The notes beneath the pieces are model-generated. The model searched no databases. It was not told the DNA's origin and worked only from the letters and a program-made list of their open reading frames with translations. A DNA stretch of 37,870 nucleotides. Source: a virus. The DNA is taken from the IMG/VR virus record IMGVR_UViG_3300009379_000003, positions 1-37,870 of that record; one strand, written 5' to 3'. A program made the position numbers and the translations under genes. Of this stretch, positions 3,966 to 31,114 are shown piece by piece (the first letter of the stretch is position 1; every line of letters starts with the position of its first letter).

Positions 3966-5085
3966 ATTCAACCTTGCTCCATGTGACAGTTCCTAATAAT
4001 GGGAATTCATATTCTCCAACAGCAAAACCAGAATGTGATGCTATTGTAATAGTTTTAAGATTGTTAACATTGGAAATTAAAGCATAATCAATTTGATCAT
4101 CCAGAATATCTTCACCTCTAACCAATTGCTCAAAATAAATTGAGAGCGCATCGTTCAGTTCTTCATTGGTTGGTATTGTTGATGTATAATAAACTGTGAT
4201 AGCAGCATTCCAAACATGAGTTGACATATTAAAAACAACAACCTTATAAGCGCCAGAGGGATCCATTTCATCATTATTGAAATGTGCTGATATCTCATCC
4301 TTTTGATCCTGAGTAGGCATTCCGGAAGTTGTCAATAATGCAATACCTATTGTACCTCTGCCGGCATAGCGTGGTACTGCAACTGCATCTGTGACAAATG
4401 AAAATTCTTTAGTTTCTGATACGAACCATGACAAAAGACCTCTATAAATTGCATTTTTTCGGGTTACAATTCTTCCCCGGACTTCATCAATTGATTCTAT
4501 GTCCCGGCCATAAGCAGCATCGGCTGTATTATAAACAATATCAATACCCGGGATGTCAGTCAGCAGTTGATTGATTGATCCAGCTGAGACATTATATCTT
4601 ACACCGGCCTCAACTGATTCAATATTTATCTCAATAGTATAACAACCGTTCTCATCAGCCGGAGTGCTGGCATTGATACTTCCACCTGACAACAAAACAA
4701 ACTGCTTTACCTCATCACTGTTTGACCCTTCAGTACCAACAAGTGCAAGCTGAGGAATTGGCTTTTCAGCATCCGGTAAAGTAGTTGACCCAATACGGAC
4801 AGTGGCAATTGCTTTTTTAGCTTGCTTCCATGGCTCCAGTCCGTGATCAGCAAGATGCTGTATCAGGGCCTCTTTATCCGATGAGTATATAAAAATATTG
4901 TTATACACTGGAACCATCATATCAAATATAAAATCATAAATAACTCGGGAAATTGCTTCAATTATTGCTCTGATTTTACCAAGGAGGTTTAAGTTAGCAG
5001 CAAAAAGTTTTTTCAGATCATCATCATCATTAATATTGGTCAGTAATTGTGTTCTTATTTCATCATTAGTCCATGTTAGCTTCAT
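3955..5085 (-). CDS. Baseplate wedge protein J (Mu gp47 family)
   Basis: This 376-aa protein has the family signature near residues 185-215, where GRDIESIDEVRGRIVTRKN follows a segment like the usual GAAYGxD; the rest is a beta-rich body with the typical Gly/Ser-rich SGGSINASTPAD region. Baseplate J proteins form the wedge that holds the tail in the extended state and triggers contraction. The start codon overlaps the stop of the gp46-like gene by 4 bases (ATGA type), and its own end overlaps the gp48-like gene. Confidence 0.88.
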   Translation of the reverse strand: MKLTWTNDEIRTQLLTNINDDDDLKKLFAANLNLLGKIRAIIEAISRVIYDFIFDMMVPVYNNIFIYSSDKEALIQHLADHGLEPWKQAKKAIATVRIGSTTLPDAEKPIPQLALVGTEGSNSDEVKQFVLLSGGSINASTPADENGCYTIEINIESVEAGVRYNVSAGSINQLLTDIPGIDIVYNTADAAYGRDIESIDEVRGRIVTRKNAIYRGLLSWFVSETKEFSFVTDAVAVPRYAGRGTIGIALLTTSGMPTQDQKDEISAHFNNDEMDPSGAYKVVVFNMSTHVWNAAITVYYTSTIPTNEELNDALSIYFEQLVRGEDILDDQIDYALISNVNNLKTITIASHSGFAVGEYEFPLLGTVTWSKVEYAE

Positions 5086-10586: not shown

Positions 10587-11009
10587 TTATAATGGTACTT
10601 CTATTGGCATGGCCAGATTCTTAAAATCAATATCTACCATGAAAGTAGTATCATCGACCTTGCGTTTATGCCCAATTTTCTCAATCTGAACCAGAGGTAA
10701 AGTTTCTTTCATTTTTTTACCATTTGGTTTTTCATGAAGTCCTACAATTGGAAACGGTGGCAGATCCAACGGATCTCCGCCAAATGGTGCGGCAGCTATC
10801 ACCAGCTTTTCATACTCTTCAAGAGAAATGACCATTTTACCTGATGATTCTTTTTTACCTTTTCCATAACCAACCATTTCATTCCCTTTACCATATGAGC
10901 CTTCGACTTTTTGATTTCGGTCATAATCTATTGACTCAATACCAATCAGCGTCCGGGCCAGAATAGTTGCCTGGTAATTTTTCCATGAATAATTTTCAGT
11001 AACACCCAT
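10587..11009 (-). CDS. Tail tube protein
   Basis: A 140-aa protein directly after the sheath gene, the constant position of the tube gene in contractile-tailed phages. The sequence is beta-rich with YGKGNEMVGYGKGKKESSG and a C-terminal VDIDFKNLAMPIEVPL strand. Tube proteins form stacked hexamers through which DNA passes. An AGG/GGAGG site lies upstream of the ATG. Confidence 0.75.
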   Translation of the reverse strand: MGVTENYSWKNYQATILARTLIGIESIDYDRNQKVEGSYGKGNEMVGYGKGKKESSGKMVISLEEYEKLVIAAAPFGGDPLDLPPFPIVGLHEKPNGKKMKETLPLVQIEKIGHKRKVDDTTFMVDIDFKNLAMPIEVPL

Positions 11010-14982: not shown

Positions 14983-15984
14983 TTAAATATTCAGCATTAT
15001 AGAAGCTTCTGTAAAAAGCTTTTCCCATCCAGCAACTTCAGATACAACAGCCTCTTCAAGTTGCTTATCAATAACCTTATCAACCTCAACCAAACTGCCG
15101 CCTTTTTCAAAAACTTCATGAAGCGAAGCCTTTGTATCAAGAGCAATGATTTTGTTGCCAGGCATTGCATCACACCTTCTCGGCGCATCTGGCATGTCAG
15201 GTCCATTTTTATCTTTGTATTCAGTAAGATTTAAATAATCAACCCTCATGTCTTTACCGGATATCATCATAGACGGATCAAAATATTTAAATTCTTCAGA
15301 CAGATTAACAACATCTGCATAAGAAAGAGTTCCGGCACTTGAAGCATTAATGCTGGATATGGGATTGCTGTTCCCATCACCATTGATAAGAGTTTCAACA
15401 GCAATATTAACTTTTTCGCGGGTAATGTTTCTGCCAAGAACTTTCATTGTCACACCAAAAACGTTCAAAGCCATTCTGCGGACTGCTTCATAAGTCGCTT
15501 CAATTTTATAACCAACCTTGTAAAGGGTGATTGTTTTATCTTTGAACTTAATAGTGACAGTTGGAAATTCTCCTGATTCTCCAACCCTGCGGGCAATTCC
15601 GTCAGAATCCAAGTCAACAGACGCTCCCTGGAAAACATTTCCGGGTATACCCGTGCTTGTTGCTCTGAGCTGATTAAGAATAACAAATCTTTTGCTTTCT
15701 TCCAGCATTCCAGTGCGGACAAATTTATTAATAACAGCAGGGAACAGTATTTTGTTCTCTTTGGTTTTAAAGAAATCTTCAACAAGACTTGCGCTGTCTC
15801 CTGAAATTGCCAGGTCACGAGCTGCAAGCTGTTGTTGAAGAACATCAAGCCCCTTTAATTCTGCATTCTCGGAAAATTTACCTGCCTTTTTCGCCTGCTT
15901 TTCCAGCAATTGTATAAATGACAGACCCTCTTCTTTGGCATCACTGTACATTTGCCTGGATAAATCAATTTTTTCAATTCTCAT
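14983..15984 (-). CDS. Major capsid protein (Mu gpT-type)
   Basis: 333 aa. It lies after protease/scaffold and decoration genes and shows the elements of a Mu-type capsid: N-terminal helical region, the segment FVRTGMLEESKRFVILNQLRATSTGIPGNVFQG, a central YKVGYKIEATYEAVRRMALNVFGVTMKVLGRNI spine-like helix region and a C-terminal IIALDTKASLHEVFEKGGSLVEVDKVID strand. The fold is probably HK97-like. AAGGAG lies 7 bases before the ATG. Confidence 0.85.
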   Translation of the reverse strand: MRIEKIDLSRQMYSDAKEEGLSFIQLLEKQAKKAGKFSENAELKGLDVLQQQLAARDLAISGDSASLVEDFFKTKENKILFPAVINKFVRTGMLEESKRFVILNQLRATSTGIPGNVFQGASVDLDSDGIARRVGESGEFPTVTIKFKDKTITLYKVGYKIEATYEAVRRMALNVFGVTMKVLGRNITREKVNIAVETLINGDGNSNPISSINASSAGTLSYADVVNLSEEFKYFDPSMMISGKDMRVDYLNLTEYKDKNGPDMPDAPRRCDAMPGNKIIALDTKASLHEVFEKGGSLVEVDKVIDKQLEEAVVSEVAGWEKLFTEASIMLNI

Positions 15985-15994
15985 GAGTTACTCC

Positions 15995-16708
15995 TTACCC
16001 TATGTGGGCCCATACAATATTATTTTCTGTGTCAATAGAGAATATCCTGACCGGAACTCCCTCACCGGCATCAACACCGTTTGAAAGTGCAGTTTTAGCT
16101 ATTGCTGCAACAACACCGTTTCCAGTACTGTCTCCCTCATTTAAAACAGTTATAAGCCCATTGGCTCCACTGGCCTCAATCGCTGTCTTGACCTGAGCGG
16201 CTGTTGATATAATATCTCCACTGCCATCAGTTGCAAGGCTGACTGTTATAGCTTCACCAACAACATCAACACTGAGCGCCTGAGTGTTTCCAGAAGGATC
16301 CTTTAGCTCAATTGTTATGTCATGGCCTGCCAGCCCGAGAACGTCTTTTGCAGTAAACCGGAGAGCATTGTTAGTCTCAATTACACCGGATACAAGATAA
16401 GCCCTTACGCCGGCAGATGGCAATTTAACTCCGCCATCACCATTGCCAACAAGGATTACTCTGCCAAGACCCGGTGCGGATCCGGAATATGCCAGGCCTT
16501 GAAAATTAGCCAGAGCAACAACACCGATTGCATTTCCTTTCTCAATGGTTGCAATAACTCCATCAAACTTTTCTCCATCTTCACAAAGTGCTACAGTACC
16601 ATTGTCTGATACTTTAACAACCTTGCCTTCATCTTCTCCTCTGGTAAAACCAGATGCGAGATTGACTGTAGGTCTGTTTCCAATTCCATTAAATGATATG
16701 CCGAACAT
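15995..16708 (-). CDS. Head decoration protein
   Basis: About 237 aa from ATG 16708; a first ATG at 16714 lies too close to the AAGGGGG ribosome site. The N-terminal half, GRPTV.L...GEDEGKVVKVSDNGTVALCEDGEKFDG..., has the pattern of capsid decoration (DUF2190-like) proteins. A second beta domain (about 110-215: DITIELKDPSGNTQALSVDV, TAAQVKTAIEASGANGLITV) is inserted before the C-terminus and may be exposed on the capsid. It is coupled with capsid and protease genes. Confidence 0.65.
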   Translation of the reverse strand: MFGISFNGIGNRPTVNLASGFTRGEDEGKVVKVSDNGTVALCEDGEKFDGVIATIEKGNAIGVVALANFQGLAYSGSAPGLGRVILVGNGDGGVKLPSAGVRAYLVSGVIETNNALRFTAKDVLGLAGHDITIELKDPSGNTQALSVDVVGEAITVSLATDGSGDIISTAAQVKTAIEASGANGLITVLNEGDSTGNGVVAAIAKTALSNGVDAGEGVPVRIFSIDTENNIVWAHIG

Positions 16709-16723
16709 AGTCATCCCCCTTAA

Positions 16724-17986
16724 TTAATACTGATAATTATCAGTGTTGATTTCTTCAATGCCGTCATCAGTTTTATCATCTGTTTTTTTAGCACTGGCCC
16801 TGGTCAACTTCGCACCGCATGAAGAACATGTAAGCGGAGCTACCTCTTCAGCTTTTTTCTGAAACTCATCTCTCAGTTGAACAGCTGATTCAACATCTGC
16901 GGATAAAATGATTTTACCCATTACTGATTCAGAAAATTTTTCATCATCAGTTTTCCCCTCAGAAATTTTAGCAAAAGACAGAGTTTCCTGTCTGATATCA
17001 TTAAGATATTTATCACCATGGGCCGCATTAACTGCCATGGCCTTCAGTTTAGCCTCATATTCTTCCGGATTTACATCATCACCAAGGACACCTGCAAATA
17101 TGGTCTGTAGCTTTTGATTATTTGTTTTCATCTCACCAAATAATTTTCCCAGGTCAGAAAACAGCATTGTCTTACCTGCATCATCAAGCTCAACTTCTGA
17201 GACTCCGGCATTCAGACCATAAACAGCAAGATTCAGCATACACAGTGATGCGAATGTTTTTGTTAATTTCACAGAATCACCTCCATTTTGTGATTGTTTT
17301 TGATTAACTTTTTCAGGATTTGGCCCCTTGCCTTTATTGCCTGAATCTGTTGAAAATGAATCAATTCGTTTGGCGTAAATATCTGCCCCTTGCCAGACCA
17401 GTGATATTTCACCATAAGAAATAATTTTAGTTACTATCATACGAACCAGCTGACCGCCGATCTCTTCACCCAGATGGTACCAGAAATCCTCTAATTCTGG
17501 ATGAGACTTCTGATATTCAAAAAGGACATTTACAGAAACAGAATGAATCGCACCGTCCTTGATCCCATCAATGACGCGTTCATTCCATTTTTTATTCAGC
17601 TTCAGGTTAACATTTATTCCATGAGGAATATGATCAGATGTGTCCCATATACTTTTAGCTGTAACTCCAACCCATTGATCAACACTGCAATTATGATCTT
17701 TGTATACAGTCTGGCCTTTCATCATCTTAGTTGATTTTTTCAGCACACCATCCATACTGAAGTCAAGTGCCCGTTCATATATTACAAATGCTGACAACGC
17801 TCTGAATGTCGGATAGAAATATTTTTCATCTTCATCAAAATGCAAAACCGGAGCTTTGTCTGGTTCGGCTGAAAATGCAAAAGCCGATGCCAGCTTCAAG
17901 GAACCAACCGCCCGGGTCGCATCAATTGACAGGCCCTGTTTTTTCAGTTCCTCCAGCCGTGCTTTGAATTTTTCTGCTTTATTCAT
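16724..17986 (-). CDS. Prohead protease / scaffold protein (Mu gpI/Z-like)
   Basis: About 420 aa, start at the second ATG (17986), five bases after AAGGAG. The N-terminal half (to about 220) has features of capsid maturation proteases of Mu-like phages: HFDEDEKYFYPTFRALSAFVIYERALDF, KGQTVYKDHNCSVDQWVGV and DGAIHSVSVNVLFEY, consistent with a Ser/His active site. The C-terminal half is helical and acidic like a scaffold (LFSDLGKLFGEMKTNNQKLQTIF). A CSSC pair near residue 390 (APLTCSSCGAKL) is an oddity, perhaps half of a zinc ribbon. A terminator lies just upstream. Confidence 0.78.
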   Translation of the reverse strand: MNKAEKFKARLEELKKQGLSIDATRAVGSLKLASAFAFSAEPDKAPVLHFDEDEKYFYPTFRALSAFVIYERALDFSMDGVLKKSTKMMKGQTVYKDHNCSVDQWVGVTAKSIWDTSDHIPHGINVNLKLNKKWNERVIDGIKDGAIHSVSVNVLFEYQKSHPELEDFWYHLGEEIGGQLVRMIVTKIISYGEISLVWQGADIYAKRIDSFSTDSGNKGKGPNPEKVNQKQSQNGGDSVKLTKTFASLCMLNLAVYGLNAGVSEVELDDAGKTMLFSDLGKLFGEMKTNNQKLQTIFAGVLGDDVNPEEYEAKLKAMAVNAAHGDKYLNDIRQETLSFAKISEGKTDDEKFSESVMGKIILSADVESAVQLRDEFQKKAEEVAPLTCSSCGAKLTRASAKKTDDKTDDGIEEINTDNYQY

Positions 17987-18002
17987 CATATCTCCTTATG
18001 GC

Positions 18003-18055
18003 ACAAAAAAAGCCGATACACCTCGGAAGAATACATATTCCGTGTGTTATCGGCT
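18003..18055 (-). terminator. Strong intrinsic terminator upstream of the protease gene
   Basis: On the minus strand, AGCCGATA-ACAC and GTG-TATCGGCT (arms 18044..18055 and 18011..18021) form a long stem with an inner GGAATA/TATTC pairing, followed by seven T. It lies about 15 bases before the protease ribosome site, inside the late operon, so read-through or a second promoter is needed for the capsid genes. Confidence 0.8.
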
Positions 18056-18143
18056 GTGGTTATGGTTTTCAGGTCTCAGACCTGTCTGTTCTTATTGCTC
18101 AGACGGCTCAAATGGTGTTTAAAAATGTTTAAAAACCATTTTG
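18003..18143 (-). ncRNA. Candidate structured small RNA between immunity and protease genes
   Basis: A TATAAT box (complement of 18150..18155) stands at the start of a 140-base segment without an ORF. In order of transcription it has a hairpin AAATGGT/ACCATTT (18110..18141), GTCTG/CAGAC (18084..18104), AGGTC-TCA-GACCT (18071..18083) and a terminator with T7. The CAGAC of the last two can pair alternatively, as in switches. No -35 box is convincing. Could also be a long leader attenuator of the capsid operon. Confidence 0.45.
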
Positions 18144-18196
18144 GCTGCCATTATATACCTACAGGGTTTATTGCCCGAAAAGGGGCTTATATTTCC

Positions 18197-18535
18197 TCAT
18201 TTATAATACAGTTCTTTTGCCAAATCTTTAACATGGTCAGGCAGTTTGTCTATTGGGTATTCACCCCTTGAAATTAAATCAGGATTCCACATCCATGTGT
18301 TTTTCATTTCATCATCATATTGCATAATTGAACCTGATATAAATTCACCAAGAACTTCAGCGCTTCTGATTATTTTTTTATCTATATCAATAATTTTATT
18401 AATATCATATTTCGAGTCATCATACATATGACGGAAATCAGCAATCTGCTGAGTCTCTGTATCAAATTGATTTTCAATAGAGAGAAGTCTTTCTTCCAAT
18501 AATGTTATCAGATTTTTTTCACTTATATCTTTCAT
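18197..18535 (-). CDS. Putative immunity protein for the MuF-linked toxin
   Basis: 112 aa, acidic, helical, no recognised family. Its ATG overlaps the TGA of the portal-MuF-toxin gene (ATGA, 18532..18535), so the two are translationally coupled. Genes placed directly after a MuF-toxin gene encode cognate immunity proteins in other temperate phages, and this slot has no counterpart in the Mu head gene order. Aromatic C-terminus (TWMWNPDLISRGEYPIDKLPDHVKDLAKELYYK region). The immunity role is inferred from context only. Confidence 0.55.
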   Translation of the reverse strand: MKDISEKNLITLLEERLLSIENQFDTETQQIADFRHMYDDSKYDINKIIDIDKKIIRSAEVLGEFISGSIMQYDDEMKNTWMWNPDLISRGEYPIDKLPDHVKDLAKELYYK

Positions 18536-21183
18536 TTTATTTCTACCATGTGAGTGCCAGGCTTAAATCTCCTGAATTTATGGAATCTTAAAATTTTACT
18601 TTCATCATTTATCTGTAAAAAACTGCCAGTCCCGGAATCAAAGTAAATCCATTCAATTGATTCTTCTCCAAATGTATACACTTTATCATAGTTCAGCAAC
18701 ACTTTTTTTAATGATTTATCATAGCTTCCGGTTTTTTCAAATTCCTTTCCATGTTTGGAAGCATGATATTCTTTACTTTTCCGTGTTGTACCATCAGGCC
18801 ATTCCCTGACTTTATCTTCCCACCAGCTTGTCTTAACCTGACTGTCAACTTTTGATAATAATTCATCCTTTTTTAGTTTATTGAGAATACTTGCTCTCTT
18901 TTTTGCTGTCTCATTTAATGAGTCATAATTTATATTTCCTGAAAAGGTTTCATCTGATGATGACTTATTGATTTTAATTTTTTTAGCAATAACCGTTGTT
19001 GTCCTGCACCGACCATGATAAGGAGGCATAGGGCAGTCTGTTTTATCCAGGATATCTTTTGTTGACATGTCATGATATTCTTTTGCCTGTTTTTCATTTG
19101 GCCAGGCATATTTCTCTGTCAGTTCATTCATTGGTGTTTTCAAAACTTCCCGTACATGCTCAGCCAGATATTTAACAGAAATTCTTCTGCCATTCATCAC
19201 CCTGCAAATCCTTGATGTCTTTTTATCCAGTATGGCAACTACCTCAACCTCTGCAATCCCCAATCTCTCATATTTAAAAACACGACCATAATTACGGGAC
19301 TTGTTTACAGCATTCCGGATACACAAGTCATAATAATTATTCACATAAGGATGTTCAAATGCTTCACCCAGTGATTCCTTCATCCGTTTAACAGTTTCTT
19401 TATCATATGCTCTGGCAGTTCCTTTCAGTTCATCTTCAACTACCTTACGCATATCATCTGAATAATGCTCAAACTGTTTTCCGAAAAAATGCTGATCATG
19501 TTTTTTAAAGAACTTTAATGCATCTTTATCAGTGACTTTCCACTTATCATCAGACCAGTCCTGACCAAGCCCCATTTTATATGCCTTGCCGGTCCAGTCT
19601 TTTATTACAGATAAAGATTCATCCGGCAGTTCATGGGACATTTTGCGGTTCATATCATTCATAATTGCCTCAGCAACATCATCAGTCTTGAAATGTGCAT
19701 CAAGCCCGGATAGAACCTCATTGTATTTTACCCTGTAGATTTCAAAGAACTCAGTGCTGTAATCTTCTTCTAATTCAGCTATTCGTTTATATTCGTTATC
19801 GCTTTTTTTTTTACCCAGAGTAACTATTCTGGGCTTAATAAATTCATACTTTTCTCTTGATTTACTATAATCAAACTTCAGACGCACAAGGCCCTCTGTT
19901 TTATCATTATCTTCTGATGGTTTTTGGTATGCCTCATCATATCCAAGTTCTCGCGCTGCCTGGTCTTCATCTATTGTGCCTTTATCCAGACGTTGGTATA
20001 CCATTCGCTGTTTTATTTCATCAGCTTCAACTTCCTCTTTCCTGTTAAGGGATGGGGGAGCTTTTGACTGCATACTGCAAACTGCAGGGATCCGCCTCAG
20101 TGCAAGATGCAAATTATAAGAATGCTCATTACCGCGTTTTATTATTCTCCAGATATTTTGTATCTGATTTACCAGTGTCATGTAAACCATTTCAGCATAC
20201 GTTTCAGTTGTTGAATATGTATATCCAAGAATTGCCGGATCAATATCCAATCCTGAAGTCAATGCCTGGTGATTTGATTCCAGAATGTCTTTCATCTGAC
20301 CGGCATTTTTTGAAACATTATTATGCTTGAATTCAGTATTTTTCCCGGTTGCAATTATGCCGTCTTTAATATTTGATTTAAATGCCTTAACATGTTTTTT
20401 TAGTGTATCCTGAGATCGTCGCCGAAATTCTGTGTCACTTTCATTAAATTCTTTTCGGAGATCAAAGGCTAAATGTACAAGGCCCATCAGTCCCCATTTA
20501 TCTGTAAAATCATCTATTCCCAGCCATTGTCTTTCCTGTCTTATAATTCCCCGAAGGGCTGAGACAAATGGTGGTATAGCATAAGGATTATCCTCTTCAG
20601 TATATAAAGGCACATATGAAAATGTCTGTTCATTTAGAGGTATTTCTCTTATACCCAATTGCTGATAAGGTAAATATTTCCCATCTTCAAATTTAAATCT
20701 GATGGTAGATGTCCTTACCTGATATACTTCCTCAACTTCCTTCAAGCCAACTGACGGAACTGTCTCCTGACACAAAGCCCCTTTAACAATAATTTGTCTA
20801 AACTGCTGATTAATAAAACCATCAGCCCCTGCATTGTTGGGAAATTTGTTCCTGGCAAAATCATTCAGCTCAGACGCTGCAGCTTCAATTGCTCTTTCAC
20901 CGGCTCCGGAAAATTCCAGTGTATGGCCAACATTTCCCAGACTGATAATCTTTTTAACTGTCTGAGATACATCCGGATTAAATGTTGCAAGCCATGAAAG
21001 TGTATCTATAAATTCAAATCGGAAAACAGGATAAACTTCCTTGAATTCATTACTATATGAAGTAATCGAATCAGAAAGAGTGTTTTTCTGTGCATGCCCG
21101 GGATCAGTAAAACTTACATTAATCACATCCCGCGATAATATGTTTTTGAAAAATTTACCTGTCTTCTGAATTCTGCTATCCAT
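18532..21183 (-). CDS. Portal - MuF - C-terminal nuclease-toxin fusion protein
   Basis: 883 aa in three parts. Residues 1 to about 440 are a Mu gp29-type portal (QERQWLGIDDFTDKWGLMGLVHLAF; DIDPAILGYTYSTTETYAEMV). About 465-740 is a MuF minor head domain ending in the typical CPMPPYHGRCRTTT motif (717-730). Residues about 780-883 resemble the BECR-type (barnase/EndoU/colicin/RelE-like) toxins, with EYHASKHGKEF at 805-815 and beta strands (IEWIYFDSGTGSFLQIN) after it. MuF toxins are injected with DNA or act at release and are neutralised by a neighbouring immunity gene. An A10 run (19803..19812) codes Lys-Lys-Lys in the linker between portal and MuF; a one-base slip stops translation almost at once. 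Confidence 0.82.
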   Translation of the reverse strand: MDSRIQKTGKFFKNILSRDVINVSFTDPGHAQKNTLSDSITSYSNEFKEVYPVFRFEFIDTLSWLATFNPDVSQTVKKIISLGNVGHTLEFSGAGERAIEAAASELNDFARNKFPNNAGADGFINQQFRQIIVKGALCQETVPSVGLKEVEEVYQVRTSTIRFKFEDGKYLPYQQLGIREIPLNEQTFSYVPLYTEEDNPYAIPPFVSALRGIIRQERQWLGIDDFTDKWGLMGLVHLAFDLRKEFNESDTEFRRRSQDTLKKHVKAFKSNIKDGIIATGKNTEFKHNNVSKNAGQMKDILESNHQALTSGLDIDPAILGYTYSTTETYAEMVYMTLVNQIQNIWRIIKRGNEHSYNLHLALRRIPAVCSMQSKAPPSLNRKEEVEADEIKQRMVYQRLDKGTIDEDQAARELGYDEAYQKPSEDNDKTEGLVRLKFDYSKSREKYEFIKPRIVTLGKKKSDNEYKRIAELEEDYSTEFFEIYRVKYNEVLSGLDAHFKTDDVAEAIMNDMNRKMSHELPDESLSVIKDWTGKAYKMGLGQDWSDDKWKVTDKDALKFFKKHDQHFFGKQFEHYSDDMRKVVEDELKGTARAYDKETVKRMKESLGEAFEHPYVNNYYDLCIRNAVNKSRNYGRVFKYERLGIAEVEVVAILDKKTSRICRVMNGRRISVKYLAEHVREVLKTPMNELTEKYAWPNEKQAKEYHDMSTKDILDKTDCPMPPYHGRCRTTTVIAKKIKINKSSSDETFSGNINYDSLNETAKKRASILNKLKKDELLSKVDSQVKTSWWEDKVREWPDGTTRKSKEYHASKHGKEFEKTGSYDKSLKKVLLNYDKVYTFGEESIEWIYFDSGTGSFLQINDESKILRFHKFRRFKPGTHMVEIK
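19803..19812 (-). promoter_or_regulatory. A10 tract, possible slippage site
   Basis: The coding strand reads GGT AAA AAA AAA AGC GAT AAC. A -1 slip (or an A11 transcript) gives AAG CGA TAA; a +1 slip (A9) reaches TAG seven codons on. Either would release a portal-only protein of about 460 aa. Tracts of nine or more A are efficient transcriptional slippage sites in bacteria. Confidence 0.5.
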
Positions 21184-21188
21184 TAAAT

Positions 21189-22814
21189 TTATCCATAATA
21201 GGGATCCACATCCGGAGTAAACAGGCCTCTGCCGATTTGAAATGATATAAAGGCCGAGTTCATCGCCATTCCGAAGTGATTTGCAACATTCTTTTTATAT
21301 ACTGTTTTTTCGTATCCATTTTTATCCAGTAGCTTCTCTTTCTCAAGGTTTTTGATCTGAGATTTAAATTTTTCATATAATTCAAGTTCATCAGGCTTCA
21401 GCATTTTTGGATTAGGAAATTCAAAAAAGCCTTCTTTCAACATATCGGCCATCTCATCAATACTGGTTGTCCGATCATGTTTAACAACAGGGATGCTGTC
21501 TTCACCGTCCTGTTCATCCTTCCTGATCAATGACTGAGCATTGAAATATTGTATTGCTCCCCATCCAGGGTATTTTTTGCATAAGTGCTTACCCAGCGGT
21601 TTATAGGGCATTGCATCTATTACAAAATAGCTCCGGTACAGTTCAATCAGTTCCTCAAATCTGGCTTTATCAGTTGCCAGTACTTCTTCAATATGAATCA
21701 GCCGTAATCTTTTTCCTGTCCAGCCCCAGGCAGTAACATGACAAATGTCTCCAACATCAATTCCCATAAATGAGCTGAATGCAGATTTTTCAAATCCGGA
21801 TCTGTTTGGACTCTGAGATGCCTCAATCAGTGCATCTGTTATGGGGCACATGTCTGAATCTCTGTAGGGTATTCCTATAATTGATATATGAAAGTTTTTC
21901 TTTTCAGATGTTAATATTGCATTAGTAAATTTATCATAAATAAATTTTCCATCAATTGTACTACTAAAAAGTTGGCTTTCCTGATATCCCCTGTGATCCT
22001 TGCTTCTTGACGGATGTTTTGGAACCCATTGACATTTTTCCGGATTCAGTAATTTCTTACATCTTGTACAGCCGATCCATGCCCTGAATTTATCTCCTTT
22101 TCCTGAACTGAAAAGATTCTTAGGGAAACTCTCAACAACATTGTTCCAGCGTCCGCATGATGGACATTTCAGGAGCAAGTATCTTTGATCCGATTTTTTA
22201 AAAGATCTGTTGATTCCATAGTCCGGTTTTGATGGCTGTGAAAGTTCCATAATAAATTTAAATATTGAATGAAGCAGACGGTCTTCAGCAAAAATCATAT
22301 TCTCCTGATCAGCCTCATCCAGTTCATCTTTTACAATAATATCAGCATCAATACTCTTTACTTTCCGTTTAGTCCATACTCCCCGGAAATACAGGGATGA
22401 CTGCCCAATCTGTTTCAGCCCCAAATTATCAGCTTTTTCATAGCTCATCTTTGAACTAAGATATTCAGAGTTGTCAATCATCGGATTTGCCCGATCCTGA
22501 GCAAAATCTTTAACATCTTCATCTGTCGGAAAATAATAAACTGCTTTAAGTGCCTTCCTGTCCAGAAGCCAGAGTACCTTTATTAGACAGTAAGTTGATA
22601 TCCCTATCTGCCCGGCCTTCTGATGTGTCTCCCTGGGTACTTCAGGCATTGTAAACAATTCTCTGAGATATTCATGTCCATCCAGAGAAAAAGGCACCAA
22701 TTTTCCGCCTGCCATTAGACTTATATTTTTCATTGCCCATTCAAGAAGTCCATACTGTTTGAACAGTTTGGATCCCACCTGAGAAGCTATATCAAAAACA
22801 TTAATCTCTTCCAT
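21189..22814 (-). CDS. Terminase large subunit (Mu gp28-like)
   Basis: 541 aa. The ATPase part has a Walker A-like segment QKAGQIGIST (65-74), a Walker B IIVKDELDEAD (159-169) and a zinc site C217-x2-C220...C249-x2-C252. The nuclease part has SFMGIDVGD (Asp 353) and YFVIDAMPY (Asp 400), the acidic positions of the RuvC-like fold. It packages DNA into proheads by headful, cutting host DNA next to the phage ends in Mu relatives. Overlaps the gp27-like gene by 14 bases. Confidence 0.85.
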   Translation of the reverse strand: MEEINVFDIASQVGSKLFKQYGLLEWAMKNISLMAGGKLVPFSLDGHEYLRELFTMPEVPRETHQKAGQIGISTYCLIKVLWLLDRKALKAVYYFPTDEDVKDFAQDRANPMIDNSEYLSSKMSYEKADNLGLKQIGQSSLYFRGVWTKRKVKSIDADIIVKDELDEADQENMIFAEDRLLHSIFKFIMELSQPSKPDYGINRSFKKSDQRYLLLKCPSCGRWNNVVESFPKNLFSSGKGDKFRAWIGCTRCKKLLNPEKCQWVPKHPSRSKDHRGYQESQLFSSTIDGKFIYDKFTNAILTSEKKNFHISIIGIPYRDSDMCPITDALIEASQSPNRSGFEKSAFSSFMGIDVGDICHVTAWGWTGKRLRLIHIEEVLATDKARFEELIELYRSYFVIDAMPYKPLGKHLCKKYPGWGAIQYFNAQSLIRKDEQDGEDSIPVVKHDRTTSIDEMADMLKEGFFEFPNPKMLKPDELELYEKFKSQIKNLEKEKLLDKNGYEKTVYKKNVANHFGMAMNSAFISFQIGRGLFTPDVDPYYG

Positions 22815-23346: not shown

Positions 23347-23678
23347 TATTTAGTTAATTCGCCGGTAGGAAGTAAATCTTTCCTTGCCTCATTTTTATAA
23401 TAGTTAATTCCGGTTTCAGCCAGTAATCCAGATATGAATGTTGCTAATGCAGCATTAAACATATCTATTCTGATGATGCAGACAATCGCATAAAAAACTG
23501 CCAGCAGCCTGGACAATGAAAAGAAAAATGCACGCTTTCCGACTTTACCTTTATTGTCACACCACAGGAATTTTATTTTTGACATAAAGGTTCCATCTGG
23601 ATTTTCAGAGTATACAGGTAATGACTTTGATTTTTCTTTGAGTTTTTTAGTTACATCTGCAGGGAATCTTTTTCTCAT
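23346..23678 (-). CDS. Small membrane protein, possible holin
   Basis: 110 aa. After a basic N-terminus there are two hydrophobic segments (about 50-68: FFSLSRLLAVFYAIVCII and 72-90: MFNAALATFISGLLAETGI). It sits with the next gene at the head of the late operon, where Mu-like phages keep lysis and gp25-27 genes. A holin or lysis accessory role is plausible but rests on membrane topology and place alone. Confidence 0.5.
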   Translation of the reverse strand: MRKRFPADVTKKLKEKSKSLPVYSENPDGTFMSKIKFLWCDNKGKVGKRAFFFSLSRLLAVFYAIVCIIRIDMFNAALATFISGLLAETGINYYKNEARKDLLPTGELTK

Positions 23679-24343: not shown

Positions 24344-24396
24344 GATTGAATGAATATCTAAATATAGAGCAATCGTCAAGGAATATTTTTATTAGA

Positions 24397-25905
24397 TTAT
24401 TTAAAAATATTTTGTACAAGCAAGAAAGACTGTTTTAAATTAATATCTGATAATAAAAAAATAGTTACACTAAAAATAATGAGAACACAAATCCATAAAA
24501 CAATTAACCAAAATCTTTTTTCTTTAATGAATTCCACATCATCATCAAACGAGTCATTACTAAAAATAGTTTCAATATCCTTTTCATCTAAAAGATCATT
24601 ATACTGAAGTTTTAAATTTCCATAATAATTTTCAAGTCTTTTCTTGTTTGAATTGATTTCCCATATGGAATAAAAAAGATATAAAATTGAGAGAAAAATA
24701 AGAGCACCAGATATATATGTAATATCTCGTGTAAAAATATTTTCAAATTTACCCGAGTTTATTGAATTTATTACAATAATTGTAATAAAAAATGTAATAA
24801 ATGCAAAAATATTATTTTTAAATGAATCAGCCAAAGAATTAACAATACCATTTACTTGTTTGGATAGATCAAACAATGCTTGTGAAATTTGATTTTTTAC
24901 TTCAATATATTTTACTACATTTTTTTTTAGATAAATATCATAGGATGATTTAATTGATGGTAAGACTTTTTCTTCAATTGAAAAAATATTGTTATTGTTT
25001 AAGTGAATTGTAATGATATTTCGAGCTAATCCGATCTTGTCAGTAACATGACCACCAGAAGAGTAGACCCATTTATAAATATCATAAAAAATCTGTGCTT
25101 TATCTTCTTGCAATTCATCATAAGTGATTGTATTCTCTATACAGTTATATCCATTCAGTTTAAATTCTATGGAATCATCTGTTTTTAAACTTAAAATATT
25201 GAATAAATAAGAAATACTAATAAATATTTTAGCTTTGTTAAAGAAACTACTCACTAATTTATTAGAAGTATGATTTATTAACTGAAAATCTTCTGGGATA
25301 ATTGCCATAAAATCATTATTAAATGAATGACAATGTTCTTTCATTATAGATATAAGATTTTCCCGTTCATCAATTTCAATAGATTTATTTTGAACATCAT
25401 TACCTGTACCATAAAAATAAATATTTTTGGAATTAAAACTTTCAATTTCATGAAAAACTTCAAATTTCAAATAAGAATATTTTTTTAAGATCTCTGAAAA
25501 ATTTTTAAATAAATTAATTTTTGCTAATTTATCAAGACGCTTTATAAATATATTTAAGTCATATATGGAACAAGTGTTTCCTTTTTCTTTAGAAATTCTT
25601 ATACTTACAGCTGTTGAGCTTGAGTGATCAGCCATGATGCTGTTATGATCTGAAATTTCATCAACAAAGCCAATAATGTTTGAATCACCTGTATTACTTA
25701 ATGAAGCAACCTCATCGCTGTCTGCTAAAAATGACAACTCCCATGTATCTCTATCTGGTATTTGTTTTAATACAGTTTTCAATTCTAAGTTATCTATACT
25801 TTTATCTATTTGATGAACAACTGCTTCAAAAACAGTCCAAGTTTCTGTGGCAGTAATTTCAGAATCAGAAAAGATGGATAATATTTTTTCTTTTAAATTA
25901 ACCAT
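24397..25905 (-). CDS. Unknown membrane protein, partner in an accessory pair
   Basis: 502 aa. Residues 1 to about 350 are soluble and AT-rich in coding. The C-terminus has three membrane helices: about 366-384 (FAFITFFITIIVINSIN), 395-415 (YISGALIFLSILYLFYSIW) and 468-490 (FWLIVLWICVLIIFSVTIFLL), with a coiled region between the last two. No family recognised. It overlaps the upstream 379-aa gene by 8 bases and lacks a strong ribosome site, so the two act together. A membrane effector of a defence or superinfection-exclusion pair is a reasonable guess, no more. Confidence 0.6.
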   Translation of the reverse strand: MVNLKEKILSIFSDSEITATETWTVFEAVVHQIDKSIDNLELKTVLKQIPDRDTWELSFLADSDEVASLSNTGDSNIIGFVDEISDHNSIMADHSSSTAVSIRISKEKGNTCSIYDLNIFIKRLDKLAKINLFKNFSEILKKYSYLKFEVFHEIESFNSKNIYFYGTGNDVQNKSIEIDERENLISIMKEHCHSFNNDFMAIIPEDFQLINHTSNKLVSSFFNKAKIFISISYLFNILSLKTDDSIEFKLNGYNCIENTITYDELQEDKAQIFYDIYKWVYSSGGHVTDKIGLARNIITIHLNNNNIFSIEEKVLPSIKSSYDIYLKKNVVKYIEVKNQISQALFDLSKQVNGIVNSLADSFKNNIFAFITFFITIIVINSINSGKFENIFTRDITYISGALIFLSILYLFYSIWEINSNKKRLENYYGNLKLQYNDLLDEKDIETIFSNDSFDDDVEFIKEKRFWLIVLWICVLIIFSVTIFLLSDINLKQSFLLVQNIFK

Positions 25906-27037
25906 GATTATTCTTTTTTTCTTCAGGTGCTTTTGGGAATTGACTGTAACCAGAATCAGTTTGTATTCTTATACATTTGTTCCCATCAGAATCTGTAACA
26001 GCTACAATGATATTCTCCTTTACATTATCTTTTAATAATAAGTCAATATTATTTTCTAATTTATATTTCCTTCGCTTAAATGATTTAAGCTTTGAATCTA
26101 TAATTTCAAAGTGTGTTTCAAACTTTGATTTTTCAGTTACTTTGGAAGGTAATTCATTAAGAGTTTTTTTCAGTTCTTCAATATTTAATTCTGAATTTTC
26201 CGGTCTGTAATCGCCAATTACATATTCGATCATTTCTTTATATTTAAAGACAGGCCTTGTCTGATAATACCCAAGTAAATTTCCATATAAATTATAATAA
26301 TCATCTTTATATTTTTTTGTTTTAGAACTTATAATTTTTTTAATCATATTAAATGAATTATAAGTACTTGCTGCATCATCTGTAACTTGTATTGTTCCGC
26401 AAAAATCTCTCCACCAATATTCTGCAATATTTGTTTTCCCATGATCTCCAAGCTGGATTGAATTAATTTCAATATTGTCATCTATAATTTCGTAGTCAAT
26501 AATACAAACTTTATATACTTTATGTTTGCAAGGTAGTCCTTCTTTTGTCAAATTTTCATCATCGATTATAGAGGTATATTCAACTTTCGCAGCAATAAAT
26601 TTTTTAATATCTTCATTCTCTTTATTATCAATTATAGTTATAAATAATGACCCTTTTAGGATTTCAGTAAATCTATCTAACTTTTCTTGTTTATAATGCT
26701 CTATGCTTAACAATTTATTCGCCATTCGTTTTGATGCAATGTTATATTTTTCAATATAATCATTAGTATTATCAGAAGTTGCAATAGAATTATGATATTC
26801 TGTTGCAATAGTTCGAAAAAGAGTATTAAATTCGGTTGTATCCGACTCAAATTCATACAATCTTGTATCAACATCTTCAATCTTTTTTATTAAATCAACA
26901 AACCAATCTTTAAAATTTCCTGTTTCAATATTTTGAACGGCCTCCTGTACCAATTCCTTTTCGATATCAAGGTTAAAGCGTTTCAAAAAGATTTGGTCAA
27001 ATATTATTGGAGTTTTGTCCTCAATTTTCTTATTCAT
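25898..27037 (-). CDS. Unknown 379-aa protein, first gene of an accessory pair
   Basis: The sequence is rich in Ile, Asn, Lys and Glu. A central part (KLDRFTEILKGSLFITIIDNKENEDIKKFIAAKVEYTS and NIAEYWWRDFCGTIQVTDDAAST) faintly recalls the nucleoid-associated NA37/YejK family, but I am unsure. GGAG precedes the ATG, and a TATAAT box lies upstream (complement of 27102..27107). A terminator separates it from the next unit upstream, so this pair looks like an independently expressed cargo unit (moron). Lower GC than the late genes. Confidence 0.55.
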   Translation of the reverse strand: MNKKIEDKTPIIFDQIFLKRFNLDIEKELVQEAVQNIETGNFKDWFVDLIKKIEDVDTRLYEFESDTTEFNTLFRTIATEYHNSIATSDNTNDYIEKYNIASKRMANKLLSIEHYKQEKLDRFTEILKGSLFITIIDNKENEDIKKFIAAKVEYTSIIDDENLTKEGLPCKHKVYKVCIIDYEIIDDNIEINSIQLGDHGKTNIAEYWWRDFCGTIQVTDDAASTYNSFNMIKKIISSKTKKYKDDYYNLYGNLLGYYQTRPVFKYKEMIEYVIGDYRPENSELNIEELKKTLNELPSKVTEKSKFETHFEIIDSKLKSFKRRKYKLENNIDLLLKDNVKENIIVAVTDSDGNKCIRIQTDSGYSQFPKAPEEKKNNHG

Positions 27038-27123
27038 TTTATTCTCCAGCTGTGGTTAATTGATAACTAATTTATTATCGGTTTTTTTTAAATTAAAATA
27101 CATTATAGAGCTTAAATGTAAAC

Positions 27124-27151
27124 AAAAAAATAGCTCCAAAAGCTGTTTTTT
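27124..27151 (-). terminator. Intrinsic terminator after the 83-aa gene
   Basis: On the minus strand AAAACAGCT and AGCTATTTTTTT flank a five-base loop, 9 bases past the stop codon at 27160. It ends the small upstream unit before the accessory pair. Confidence 0.65.
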
Positions 27152-27159
27152 CTATCAAA

Positions 27160-27411
27160 TTATTTAATAATCTCTTCCAGAATATTCCTCTGCTTCTCAA
27201 TCCGATCCTCAATATCCTGAATCCCAATATCTTTACCATACTTCCCCAGGGTAATCAGCAATGAATCAATAATAGATTTAACTTCCCTGGGAATATCTTC
27301 ATAACTTTCATAAATTAAAAGCTGCTTGTTGATGAAATCCTCTAATTCATTTTCCTTTTCCCGGAAAACATTCAGCTGGGCCAGTTTTTCAGTACCGAGT
27401 GGTTTTAGCAT
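27160..27411 (-). CDS. Small coiled-coil protein of unknown function
   Basis: 83 aa, acidic, almost wholly helical (EKENELEDFINKQLLIYESYEDIPREVKSIIDSLL, then IGIQDIEDRIEKQRNILEEIIK). AGGAG lies 6 bases before the ATG. No family recognised. Terminators lie on both sides, so it forms its own transcription unit among the accessory genes. Confidence 0.6.
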   Translation of the reverse strand: MLKPLGTEKLAQLNVFREKENELEDFINKQLLIYESYEDIPREVKSIIDSLLITLGKYGKDIGIQDIEDRIEKQRNILEEIIK

Positions 27412-27505
27412 ATGATTCTCCTGTTTTTAATGATTTTAAGAAGAACTGTATGGATTTATATGGGAATATATAGCAGGGTTGTTTTTTGGAGTCAATGTTT
27501 ATTGC

Positions 27506-27536
27506 AAAAAAAACAGCCACTGAAGGCTGTTTTTTT
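27506..27536. terminator. Bidirectional intrinsic terminator
   Basis: AAAACAGCC (27510..27518) and GGCTGTTTT (27525..27533) form a perfect 9-bp stem with A-runs on one side and T-runs on the other. It lies after the stop of the 215-aa gene. Confidence 0.9.
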
Positions 27537-27562
27537 AATTTAGTTTTTATGAAATAAAATTA

Positions 27563-28210
27563 TTATTCAATAGTAATCATGGCGGAAATTGGATTCACAC
27601 CCCATGAACCATTGATATCCGGATTTCGGGGACCGGATTCACATATTACATTCGGAGTCATTATATAATTTTTTGAATCACCCTGTATTTTTAAAGATAC
27701 TTTAAATGATTTCAGCACATCACCATTTTGTCTTATTTTTTCAATTTTATAGAAATGTATTTTTTGGTAATACTGATTTTTTAATTTGTTAGCCAGTAGT
27801 TTCACATCCTGTCTGTTCCGCCAGGTGTCTGTAGTTTTATAGACAGCCTGCTCAAATTCACCTCTTTTAATTGCATGGAGATAATACTTTAAAATATTTT
27901 TTGCAGCTTTTGTGTTTTCATCCATATCAATATTTGAAATTGGTGATGATTCTTTTTCCTTTAATTTACTTTTTCCCTCTGTTTCATCAATACTTTTCTC
28001 TGGTTCCATTAATTTTGCAACAGCTGGTTTATCCTTGGAAGTTTGCTTTGTTTGTGGTGTTTCAAGAAAAATTAGAGAAACCGAGAAAATTAGAATAAAA
28101 TAACCAAAAACCTTCCACCTGCTGGGATTTGTGTGCCATATCAAAATCTCAGGTTTCACAAAACCAACAATTGCAAAAACAACTGCTATTAGTGATAAAA
28201 ATAGATACAT
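27563..28210 (-). CDS. Membrane-anchored protein with extracytoplasmic domain (moron)
   Basis: 215 aa. Two hydrophobic helices at the N-terminus (about 2-20 and 33-50), a charged linker (about 52-95), then a C-terminal domain of about 110 residues (AAKNILKYYLHAIKRGEFEQAVYKTTDTWRN...) that looks like an NTF2/SnoaL-type alpha+beta fold. It has its own promoter and terminator. Lysogenic-conversion proteins that block superinfection have this plan, but the function is not shown. GGAGG precedes the ATG by 6 bases. Confidence 0.6.
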   Translation of the reverse strand: MYLFLSLIAVVFAIVGFVKPEILIWHTNPSRWKVFGYFILIFSVSLIFLETPQTKQTSKDKPAVAKLMEPEKSIDETEGKSKLKEKESSPISNIDMDENTKAAKNILKYYLHAIKRGEFEQAVYKTTDTWRNRQDVKLLANKLKNQYYQKIHFYKIEKIRQNGDVLKSFKVSLKIQGDSKNYIMTPNVICESGPRNPDINGSWGVNPISAMITIE

Positions 28211-28266
28211 ATCATTCCTCCAAAAAATTTAATTTGCCAGTTCAACTATTCCTTATGGCACAGGAC

Positions 28267-28296
28267 AATATAAAAAACGATAGAATAGTATGTCAA
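28267..28296 (-). promoter_or_regulatory. Promoter of the 215-aa gene
   Basis: A perfect TTGACA (complement of 28291..28296) and TATATT (complement of 28267..28272) spaced by 18 bases, about 55 bases upstream of the start codon. A repressor-operator-like site lies 38 bases further upstream. Confidence 0.7.
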
Positions 28297-28333
28297 GAAG
28301 CCATTATAAAAAAATGCTTTTTTTTATCAATAA

Positions 28334-28345
28334 ACTGTATACTAT
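28334..28345. promoter_or_regulatory. Operator-like site upstream of the 215-aa gene
   Basis: Read on the minus strand this is ATAGTATACAGT, 10 of 12 matches to the operator core ACAGTATACTGT of the early promoter. It lies downstream of the repressor gene and upstream of the moron promoter, so the repressor may also regulate this gene. Confidence 0.4.
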
Positions 28346-28415
28346 TGTGTTTTCGTAGAATTGGAGCAAGGTTTTAATGACGATACTGATAATAGATATT
28401 TCTGAAAGGAACTGA

Positions 28416-28940
28416 TCAAGCAGTTTCCCCTTTTTGAATTTTTTTTCCGGCTGCAGCCTTCTTTTGATCTCTTTCTTTATCCACTTCATAATTAATGTGA
28501 TCTTTTGTCATGTTGAGATAGTGTTCATCACTGATTTCATCAATCCCGGCAATTATGAATTTTTTTACGTCTGATAAATCTCTGAACCAGGCAGTTCTGG
28601 ATATTTTTTCCACATCATCTACCTGTGGATAATTTTCAGCACCTCCATCCAGTACATCAAGGCCATTATTGTTGACATTGATTGATTTTTCATATTGGGC
28701 ATGTTCTTCCTGACATGTTTTTTCTGACATATCAGATACAAACATTTCACCTTCACCCGTAAGGAGCCAATTTATATTCACATTAAAATTTTTTACTAAT
28801 GCATATAGACTCTGTTCAGAAAGCCCTTTTGAACGACCTTTCAATAATTCAGTTATAGCATTTCCTGAAATACCAATTTTTTCAGCAAATTCTTTTTGAT
28901 TTAACCCAGTAAACTGTATTATTTCTTTTATTCTGTGCAT
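28416..28940 (-). CDS. Phage repressor, XRE/cI-type
   Basis: About 174 aa from ATG 28940 (the frame could begin at TTG 28949). The N-terminal HTH is clear: IKEIIQFTGLNQKEFAEKIGISGNAITELLKG, then NVNINWLLTGEGEMF, the typical end of XRE DNA-binding domains. The C-terminal half (about 80-174) is charged and lacks the Ser-Lys protease signature of LexA-like repressors, so induction is unlikely to be self-cleavage. It is divergent from the early operon, and operators overlap its promoter, so it likely regulates itself. Confidence 0.88.
   Translation of the reverse strand: MHRIKEIIQFTGLNQKEFAEKIGISGNAITELLKGRSKGLSEQSLYALVKNFNVNINWLLTGEGEMFVSDMSEKTCQEEHAQYEKSINVNNNGLDVLDGGAENYPQVDDVEKISRTAWFRDLSDVKKFIIAGIDEISDEHYLNMTKDHINYEVDKERDQKKAAAGKKIQKGETA
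28906..28917. promoter_or_regulatory. Repressor operator, site 1 (within the repressor gene start)
   Basis: CCAGTAAACTGT, 10 of 12 matches to ACAGTATACTGT, inside the first codons of the repressor gene. Confidence 0.45.
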
Positions 28941-28955
28941 TTTTTCCAAAAAATC

Positions 28956-28967
28956 ACAGTATAATGG
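28956..28967. promoter_or_regulatory. Repressor operator, site 2
   Basis: ACAGTATAATGG, 10 of 12 matches to the palindromic site, 16 bases upstream of the repressor start. On the minus strand it contains TATACT, the probable -10 box of the repressor promoter, so binding would limit repressor synthesis. Confidence 0.6.
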
Positions 28968-28976
28968 GTTTTTTTA

Positions 28977-29005
28977 TTGACGACCACAGTATACTGTATT
29001 ATATT
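28977..29005 (+). promoter_or_regulatory. Early promoter with embedded operator
   Basis: TTGACG (28977..28982) and TATATT (29000..29005) are spaced by exactly 17 bases. The spacer contains the perfect palindrome ACAGTATACTGT (28986..28997). This arrangement lets repressor block polymerase directly. It drives the rightward early operon that starts at 29115. Confidence 0.8.
28986..28997. promoter_or_regulatory. Repressor operator, site 3 (perfect palindrome)
   Basis: ACAGTATACTGT is a perfect 12-bp palindrome in the spacer of the early promoter and is the best of four related sites near the repressor gene. Confidence 0.75.
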
Positions 29006-29046
29006 AGTTTAAAGCATAAGCCTTATAGCTTTTAGGCTGAAAACAT

Positions 29047-29060
29047 ACCGGAATTCCGGT
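29047..29060. promoter_or_regulatory. 14-bp perfect palindrome in the early leader
   Basis: ACCGGAATTCCGGT, a perfect palindrome without loop, lies about 55 bases before the Ner-like gene, downstream of the early promoter. Palindromes of this kind bind dimeric regulators; Mu Ner binds in the same interval. It differs from the repressor operator. Confidence 0.45.
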
Positions 29061-29114
29061 TTTAATTCAACCTAACGGCTTACAACTTTCAACCTTACTA
29101 AATAGGAGCATGAA

Positions 29115-29381
29115 ATGACAAGAAAAAATTTAAAAATTATTATGCAAATTAAAAATTTTTCACTTATTAAAATTGCTAATCAATTAAAAGTTTCAACAAC
29201 CGTTGTTTATGAAGTAGTCAACGGAGCAAAATCCTCAAAACGTATCGAAGCCGCCCTTGAAGAAGCCTTCAGCCTTCCCATTGAAAAAATCCGCAAAGCA
29301 TGGAACGACAAAGGCGCACCTGAAATCACACCTGAAATTAAAAAGGCTTTTAATGAACTTGGCGTATCGGTTCCGGCTTAG
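29115..29381 (+). CDS. ner: Ner-like early regulator (HTH)
   Basis: 88 aa, basic N-terminus with a lambda-repressor-type HTH (FSLIKIANQLKVSTTVVYEVVNGAKSSKRIEAALEEAF) as in the Ner/Nlp group. It is the first gene of the early operon, divergent from the repressor, as in Mu, where Ner turns down early and repressor transcription. AGGAG precedes the ATG by seven bases. Confidence 0.78.
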   Translation: MTRKNLKIIMQIKNFSLIKIANQLKVSTTVVYEVVNGAKSSKRIEAALEEAFSLPIEKIRKAWNDKGAPEITPEIKKAFNELGVSVPA

Positions 29382-30254: not shown

Positions 30255-31101
30255 AGATGTAATTAAACACATGGATTTTGAGATACCTACAGAAATTATT
30301 GACGAAGAAACTGGTGAACAACTGCCGGCGGATCCTGAAAAAATAAATAAAGCCTTAATGCTGATTAGTGATGTACAGCACGATACTCTCAGAATGGCAA
30401 AAAATATAGGAATGTTTTTTGAAGAGAGACTTTACCTTTATGTAGGACTTACAAAAACAGAGGCAGCACAAAAATGTTTTGGACTACATATTGATACAAT
30501 CAGAAAGTTTATCCGAATTAATCAGACATTCGGCGATCAAATTGACCAGTTTATGCATCTGGGTGTAACAAGAATGGATAAACTAACAGGTCTACCGGAA
30601 GAACAAAAACAGGAATTGCTTCAGCAACAATCAATAACTCTGGATGATGGGTCAGTAATAAGCATTAAGGATCTTAAGGAAATTAAAACATCTGATCTGG
30701 AAAAAACCCTCAAAGCTGAAAGGTTAAAAAGTTCAAGGCTGAATGTTCAGAACACAGAAATGAAAGAAGAATATGAAGCAGAAATAAACAATCTCAAAAC
30801 AGAAAATCAGCATCTTAACAACCTGATAGACATCCCTGAAGATGAACAAAAGTTTCATAAAAAAATTACAAAACTAAATGAAGCCCGGCATAAAATCTAT
30901 GAAGCCCAGGCAAACATTCATGCCGCATTTCTTAACATACATCAGATTCAACTGGATAATGACAATAAATCAATCGTATCTGAAGTTGAAGGCTTTATGA
31001 TAGCAAACGCAAAACGTTTGCTCGACCTTGAAGCTGAGTATGGAACTCAACTGGGATACTATAAAGAATCGCTAAAAACCATGGCCGGTGAACCTGCATA
31101 G
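30244..31101 (+). CDS. Coiled-coil early protein before the transposase gene
   Basis: 285 aa from ATG 30244, with AAGGAG 8 bases upstream. The N-terminal 110 residues contain KALMLISDVQHDTLRMAKNIGMFFEERLYLYVGLTKTEAAQKCFGL, resembling DUF3102-like helical regions in phage and plasmid proteins, with an HTH-like part (GLTKTEAAQKCFGLHIDTIRKFIRIN). The rest (about 160-235) is coiled coil. Precedes the transposase as an accessory gene does in Mu-like phages; role unknown. Confidence 0.6.
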   Translation: MGNKDVIKHMDFEIPTEIIDEETGEQLPADPEKINKALMLISDVQHDTLRMAKNIGMFFEERLYLYVGLTKTEAAQKCFGLHIDTIRKFIRINQTFGDQIDQFMHLGVTRMDKLTGLPEEQKQELLQQQSITLDDGSVISIKDLKEIKTSDLEKTLKAERLKSSRLNVQNTEMKEEYEAEINNLKTENQHLNNLIDIPEDEQKFHKKITKLNEARHKIYEAQANIHAAFLNIHQIQLDNDNKSIVSEVEGFMIANAKRLLDLEAEYGTQLGYYKESLKTMAGEPA

Positions 31102-31114
31102 TATGGAGAAACCA

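Follow-up and report, generated by a model that had tools for sequence, protein, structure and literature searches.

The window analysed here, i.e. the whole stretch of 37,870 bases that makes up one virus record, represents a Mu-like transposable phage. Its late operon lies on the minus strand and comprises the genes for TerL, a portal-MuF fusion, a protein of 112 amino acids, a protease/scaffold, a small head protein and the major head protein. Between the 112-aa gene (18197-18535, minus strand; phrog_9741), which takes the position of Mu gene G, and the gene for the head maturation protease/scaffold (16724-17989, minus strand; phrog_8158, 3.8e-51) at the position of Mu gene I, there is a non-coding gap of 207 bases (17990-18196, with the minus strand as the late strand). 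A MuA-like transposase (phrog_310) and a MuB-like ATPase (phrog_296, DNA transposition protein) are encoded on the plus strand at 31088-33678; the phage replicates by transposition, a process served by a strong gyrase site (SGS). Portal and MuF, which are two genes in Mu, are fused in a single protein of 883 amino acids (18532-21183). Early and late operons diverge (24379-29115), whereas the main operons of Mu are co-directional, and the repeat described below is central nonetheless. At the left end of the record (1-351), an ORF with transposase/HTH matches (phrog_1157) may be an insertion sequence of the host that has been interrupted, marking the border between phage and host.

The protease, employed as a single query in viral contigs, yielded no relatives, and these were obtained by alignment of TerL instead. 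The closest relative in a named genome is contained in a Spirochaetota MAG (L053, 68% identity in TerL), and the host is therefore probably a spirochaete. Using tblastn, the 112-aa gene was found to be kept through the clade (matches in L011, L012, L014, L017, L019-L021 and L053, strongest at the C-terminus). Considering this conservation, its first-pass labelling as part of a toxin/immunity unit is doubtful, and a structural role is more likely for the gene than one in toxin-specific immunity.

The first-pass annotation had described the gap as a promoter-hairpins-terminator segment. The respective features are present on the minus strand; for the most part, however, they do not constitute an RNA gene. 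The hexamer TATAAT is located at 18155-18150 (minus strand) but lacks a usable -35 element, and the list of sigma-70-like sites for positions 15000-22000 does not include it; 20 such sites were found there as compared to 21.7 expected from shuffled sequences, and thus no excess. Moreover, an alignment of six clade members reveals that TATAAT is not kept in place. Likewise, hairpins can be drawn at about 18141-18110, 18104-18084 and 18083-18071, but only the hairpin of the terminator recurs in relatives. The first of them (18110-18141, minus strand) is formed by two palindromic TTTAAA units and their flanks; it is a by-product of the repeat and not kept as RNA. The other two small hairpins (GTCTG/CAGAC and CAGGTCTGAGACCTG; 18071-18104, minus strand) are not conserved. 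A conserved RNA hairpin built from the repeat was rejected as well, because pairing follows from the palindromic TTTAAA sequence by itself and the adjoining base pairs are not conserved from phage to phage. A frameshift slippery heptamer (UUUAAAC) was set aside, since the gap is non-coding.

The annotation further proposed a phage small RNA or a processed leader, which would start at TATAAT, form a structured RNA of about 140 nucleotides and stop at the T7 terminator. Indeed, the gap folds better than expected by chance (MFE -61.3, z -4.87, 0 of 200 shuffles), the terminator is conserved and TATAAT is present. However, when the terminator was removed, the z value for folding amounted to -3.0 in the window, as compared to -1.8, -1.1, +1.1, -1.9 and -1.6 in the relatives. 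TATAAT without a -35 element, the lack of conservation of both this hexamer and the inner hairpins, and an Rfam search of the gap in which no family reached the gathering score argue against a small RNA, as does the finding that the conserved repeat can be central without lying near gene I, and is reversed at some loci. We consider a small RNA or processed leader at this locus very unlikely.

A search for DNA similarity between the gap and phages returned chance-level matches only. To determine which parts of the gap are kept, we compared the six gaps that share the same neighbouring genes, namely those of the window, L011, L012, L017 (= L053), L081 (= L152) and L132. Only two blocks are kept, a 10-bp direct repeat and the terminator preceding gene I. 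The conservation of the stems, which had been proposed as a test, thus gives a divided answer, as the stem of the terminator is kept in the clade and the other stems are not.

The terminator (18005-18055, minus strand) consists of a AGCCGATA...TATCGGCT hairpin (18055-18011) followed by a run of seven T residues (18011-18005), which ends 15 nucleotides short of the protease start codon (ATG). Each of the six clade members has a hairpin with six to eight T residues 10-22 nucleotides before gene I, so that the first-pass assignment of a terminator is borne out. The outer stem CCGATA...TATCGG is common to the window, L017, L081 and L132 and has diverged in L011 and L012 (6 of 8 pairs); one pair of the outer stem changes from G-C in the window to A-U in L017, L081 and L132. 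Like known intrinsic (rho-independent) terminators, the element thus combines a GC-containing hairpin with a run of T residues, and this arrangement is kept in relatives. In contrast to these, it directly precedes a gene that is needed in the same programme, and hence it must be leaky, regulated or bypassed. We conclude that, in the clade of the window, the terminator forms an element of its own that acts at the RNA level. It could end transcription coming from the portal/MuF side and thereby determine the proportion of early head transcripts relative to capsid transcripts; the protease and capsid genes beyond it may be expressed through leakage, through antitermination or from a promoter within the gap. 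The earlier idea of an attenuator separating portal/toxin expression from the capsid genes therefore finds support for one component of the gap, a terminator or attenuator, with the boundary drawn between the portal/MuF side and the capsid genes.

The second block, which the first-pass annotation had overlooked, is the exact 10-bp direct repeat TTTTTAAACA-TTTTTAAACA (18116-18135, minus strand). It is the best-conserved part of the gap and nearly invariant in the clade, where it reads TWTTAAACRNTTTTAAACR as compared to TTTTTAAACA-TTTTTAAACA in the window. With up to three mismatches the direct repeat is unique in the window, TTTTAAACGNTTTTAAACG has a single match in the whole record, and the form of the paired unit with a one-base spacer matches the window at 18116-18134 only (up to three mismatches). 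The repeat is positioned at 18126 of 37,870, corresponding to 0.48 of the contig as measured between the ends of the record. This central location, together with the placement between the gene at the position of G and the protease gene I, is that of the SGS of Mu.

The comparison with Mu extends to the sequence itself. In Mu, the gap between G and I comprises 196 bp (17860-18055) as compared to 207 in the window and contains the annotated gyrase cut at 17879/17880, corresponding to 0.49 of the Mu genome. Directly past the cut the sequence reads ATTTTTTAAAACGCGCCACGGGATTTTTAAACCGGTATTTAACGG. When whole records were searched for TTTTAAACG-N2-TTTTAAACG with at most three mismatches, a single match was obtained in Mu; it lies at 17914-17933 in the right arm of the SGS, and thus starts 34 bp past the cut. 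Phage D108 likewise contains a single match (17963-17982), and SuMu displays a cluster of repeat matches at 18366-18406. The backward pattern, employed as a control, gave one match over 31 records. As the paired unit has its sole match in Mu at the SGS, a motif that was first seen in the gap of the window finds the SGS of Mu. In addition, the centres of the AT blocks in the window (TATATAAT, TTTTTAAA and TTTTTAAA) are spaced by 22 and then 10 bp, as compared to 21 and then approximately 11.5 bp in Mu. With this matching spacing, TATAAT occupies the position of the first AT block in Mu. Consequently, TATATAAT (18150-18157, minus strand), the '-10 box' of the earlier annotation, which lacks a -35 element and is separated from the next AT block by 22 bp, i.e. 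two turns, is more convincingly interpreted as the initial phased AT block in a right arm.

These observations suggest that the gap contains a Mu-type SGS with an adjacent late-operon terminator, a prediction to which we assign a probability of roughly 0.8. With the SGS of Mu (Oram et al. 2006) the site shares the position between G and I, the genome centre, the gap size, AT blocks about 21-22 and then 10-11.5 bp apart, the common TTTTAAAC unit and the setting in a transposable phage. It differs in the probable spirochaete host, in the terminator located 3′ of the site in the same gap and in the repeat, which ends in A rather than in C or G; moreover, cleavage by gyrase is a prediction only in the case of the window.

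To assess how widely the repeat occurs, we searched the IMG/VR viral contigs for the exact pair TTTTAAACGN{1,2}TTTTAAACG. At least 120 loci were found, as opposed to 4 for a permuted control of the same composition, and at least 81 of the 120 matches listed encode Mu-like head proteins. Among the matches listed, the pair lies at 0.45-0.55 of the length in 33 of 47 contigs of 27-46 kb; after removal of similar flanks this applies to 14 of 23 contigs (p = 3e-9 versus a uniform distribution). As the gap between G and I is itself central, phages with another gene order are the telling cases. In these (L062, L079, L098, L119, L125 and others) the pair follows the capsid gene, approximately 2.5 kb downstream of where gene I starts, and is nevertheless found at 0.45-0.53 of the contig. 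In most records the repeat is present in one copy per genome, at the centre. As for further copies, the L038 record (G016) carries extra clusters at 10979-11008 and 23600-23629, which flank the central cluster (17181-17220) at distances of about 6.2 and 6.4 kb, and the L034 record (G013) has a second cluster at 36241-36292, near the end of the contig.

With respect to orientation, the pair is co-directional with gene I in all 55 loci, among the matches listed, in which gene I was detected. A pure DNA site does not require such a uniform direction, and we count this against the assignment as an SGS. The directional asymmetry of the repeat fits the asymmetric arms of the SGS of Mu, and it also leaves room for a role in transcription. 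In Mu, the late promoter PI precedes gene I. The gap could correspondingly be a control region of the capsid operon, in which a late promoter uses the repeat as its activator site or UP-type element and the hairpin acts as an attenuator. The common direction at the 55 loci, the conserved terminator and the 10-bp spacing of the direct repeats, which suits activators, would be in line with such a function. However, the repeat abuts the start codon in L037 and L038 and is located about 30 bp before a gene other than I in phages of the L062 type, which leaves no room for a promoter after the repeat. Furthermore, its orientation is reversed in D3112/Ab30 and appears reversed in L076 and L080, and most records contain the single central copy. 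A transcription-control region is thus very unlikely. A repeat that remains central away from gene I, and that is reversed in a few loci, fits a DNA site and does not fit a transcript. The assignment as an SGS, for its part, does not account for the RNA-level role implied by the terminator, which also counts against it. Among 34 Mu-like sites, terminators beside the repeat were detected upstream in two cases and downstream in four, by a finder that missed the long-loop terminator of the window itself.

We further analysed the flanks of the pair at 34 non-redundant Mu-like sites. Upstream of the pair, the AT content between -110 and -20 oscillates coherently with a period of 9.5 bp (p = 0.001), with a strength of about ten times the null, and no coherent periodicity was seen at these sites from -150 to -110. 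The extent of the periodic flank fits the gyrase footprint of approximately 130 bp (PMC6379681). The E. coli gyrase motif, however, has a longer period (10.75 bp) than the 9.5 bp seen here, a further point against the assignment as an SGS. When individual flanks were compared to the mean phasing profile, that of Mu ranked 20th of 12790 positions; the flank of the window fits moderately (rank 1076 of 75528 positions, top 1.4%). The window thus displays the phased AT blocks of a right arm, at 22 and 10 bp, with a flank of its own that is only a moderate fit.

The central SGS of Mu is a site of strong gyrase binding, and its ability to promote end synapsis and replication depends on a central position (PMC10052514, PMC3820752). 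Its right arm is essential, contains AT repeats and wraps the C-terminal domain of GyrA, with the AT minor grooves facing inward (PMC11626157). By analogy, gyrase is predicted to bind the site in the window. Laying the geometry of the E. coli gyrase motif (PMC6379681) on the window by alignment of the repeat with the SGS of Mu, we predict a footprint of 130 bp (18102-18231, from -63 to +66 relative to the cut) that reaches the end of the 112-aa gene. The host gyrase would cut near 18168 (18160-18176), 34 bp 5′ of the first TTTTAAAC, as in Mu. The DNA 3′ of the cut on the late strand, including the AT block at 18157 and the repeat pair at 18135-18116 as the predicted right arm, would then wrap the C-terminal domain of GyrA with its AT minor grooves facing GyrA. 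Processive supercoiling from the genome centre would extrude a loop and thereby join both phage ends for the MuA-like transposase. Located 60-125 bp further on, the hairpin and the T-run would wholly or partly block read-through from the portal/MuF side into the protease and capsid genes.

Alternatively, the site at the genome centre could be bound by a protein other than gyrase, either encoded by the phage or a nucleoid protein, and act like an SGS. The unit is kept at the level of sequence (AAAC, often CG), and hence is more specific than the degenerate AT/GC phasing of gyrase, even where the flanks of the phages have diverged to less than 50% identity. In Mu, however, the arm containing the unit is wrapped around GyrA (PMC11626157) and footprinted by gyrase. 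We therefore regard a non-gyrase protein as highly improbable and retain gyrase as the predicted partner of the site in the window.

The window site would accordingly be a new member of the SGS type, and the wider result is a searchable repeat that marks the genome centre in several phyla. The phased repeat, i.e. TTTTAAACG units at 10-11 bp, may mark the genome centre as a signal widely shared by transposable phages of proteobacteria, Firmicutes and spirochaetes. It would be kept as exact bases, beyond AT/GC phasing, and hence be read directly by gyrase or another partner; we put forward this generalisation tentatively, as the chances are slightly below even. Such a repeat bears on a question that was called unclear in 2021 (PMC8705779). 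A short signature that has its sole match in Mu at the SGS and lies mid-genome in many Mu-like phages can be tested host by host, and the repeat sites provide natural material for studying the choice of DNA by gyrases from different phyla.

The repeat is common and not universal, which also counts against the assignment as an SGS; it is absent from B3 and RcapMu, diverged in D3112/Ab30 and, in whole-record searches for the paired unit, lacking in many high-GC relatives. Oram and Pato reportedly described SGS candidates in 2004 in the Mu-like prophages Sakai Sp18, FluMu, S. Typhi and Pnm, with an activity that is said to differ by site. These candidates occupy the same gap as the site in the window, and in Sp18 we found a degenerate repeat of three units; in contrast to the window, all of them derive from Gammaproteobacteria or Neisseria. 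The putative SGS of Ab30 and D3112 (PMC5977238) is likewise located in this gap near the middle of the genome, where we found TTTCTAACGGGGTTCTAACGGGG. It differs from the site in the window by its reversed orientation, its diverged unit and the anti-CRISPR genes inserted in the gap. It has been suggested that the gyrase site may favour the insertion of anti-CRISPR genes there (PMC8705779). In the corresponding records (L188 for D3112, 3798-4918; L184 for Ab30, 1240-2276), the G-I gap of D3112 holds acrF2, and the diverged repeat TTTCTAACGGGGTTCTAACGGGG is located further along.
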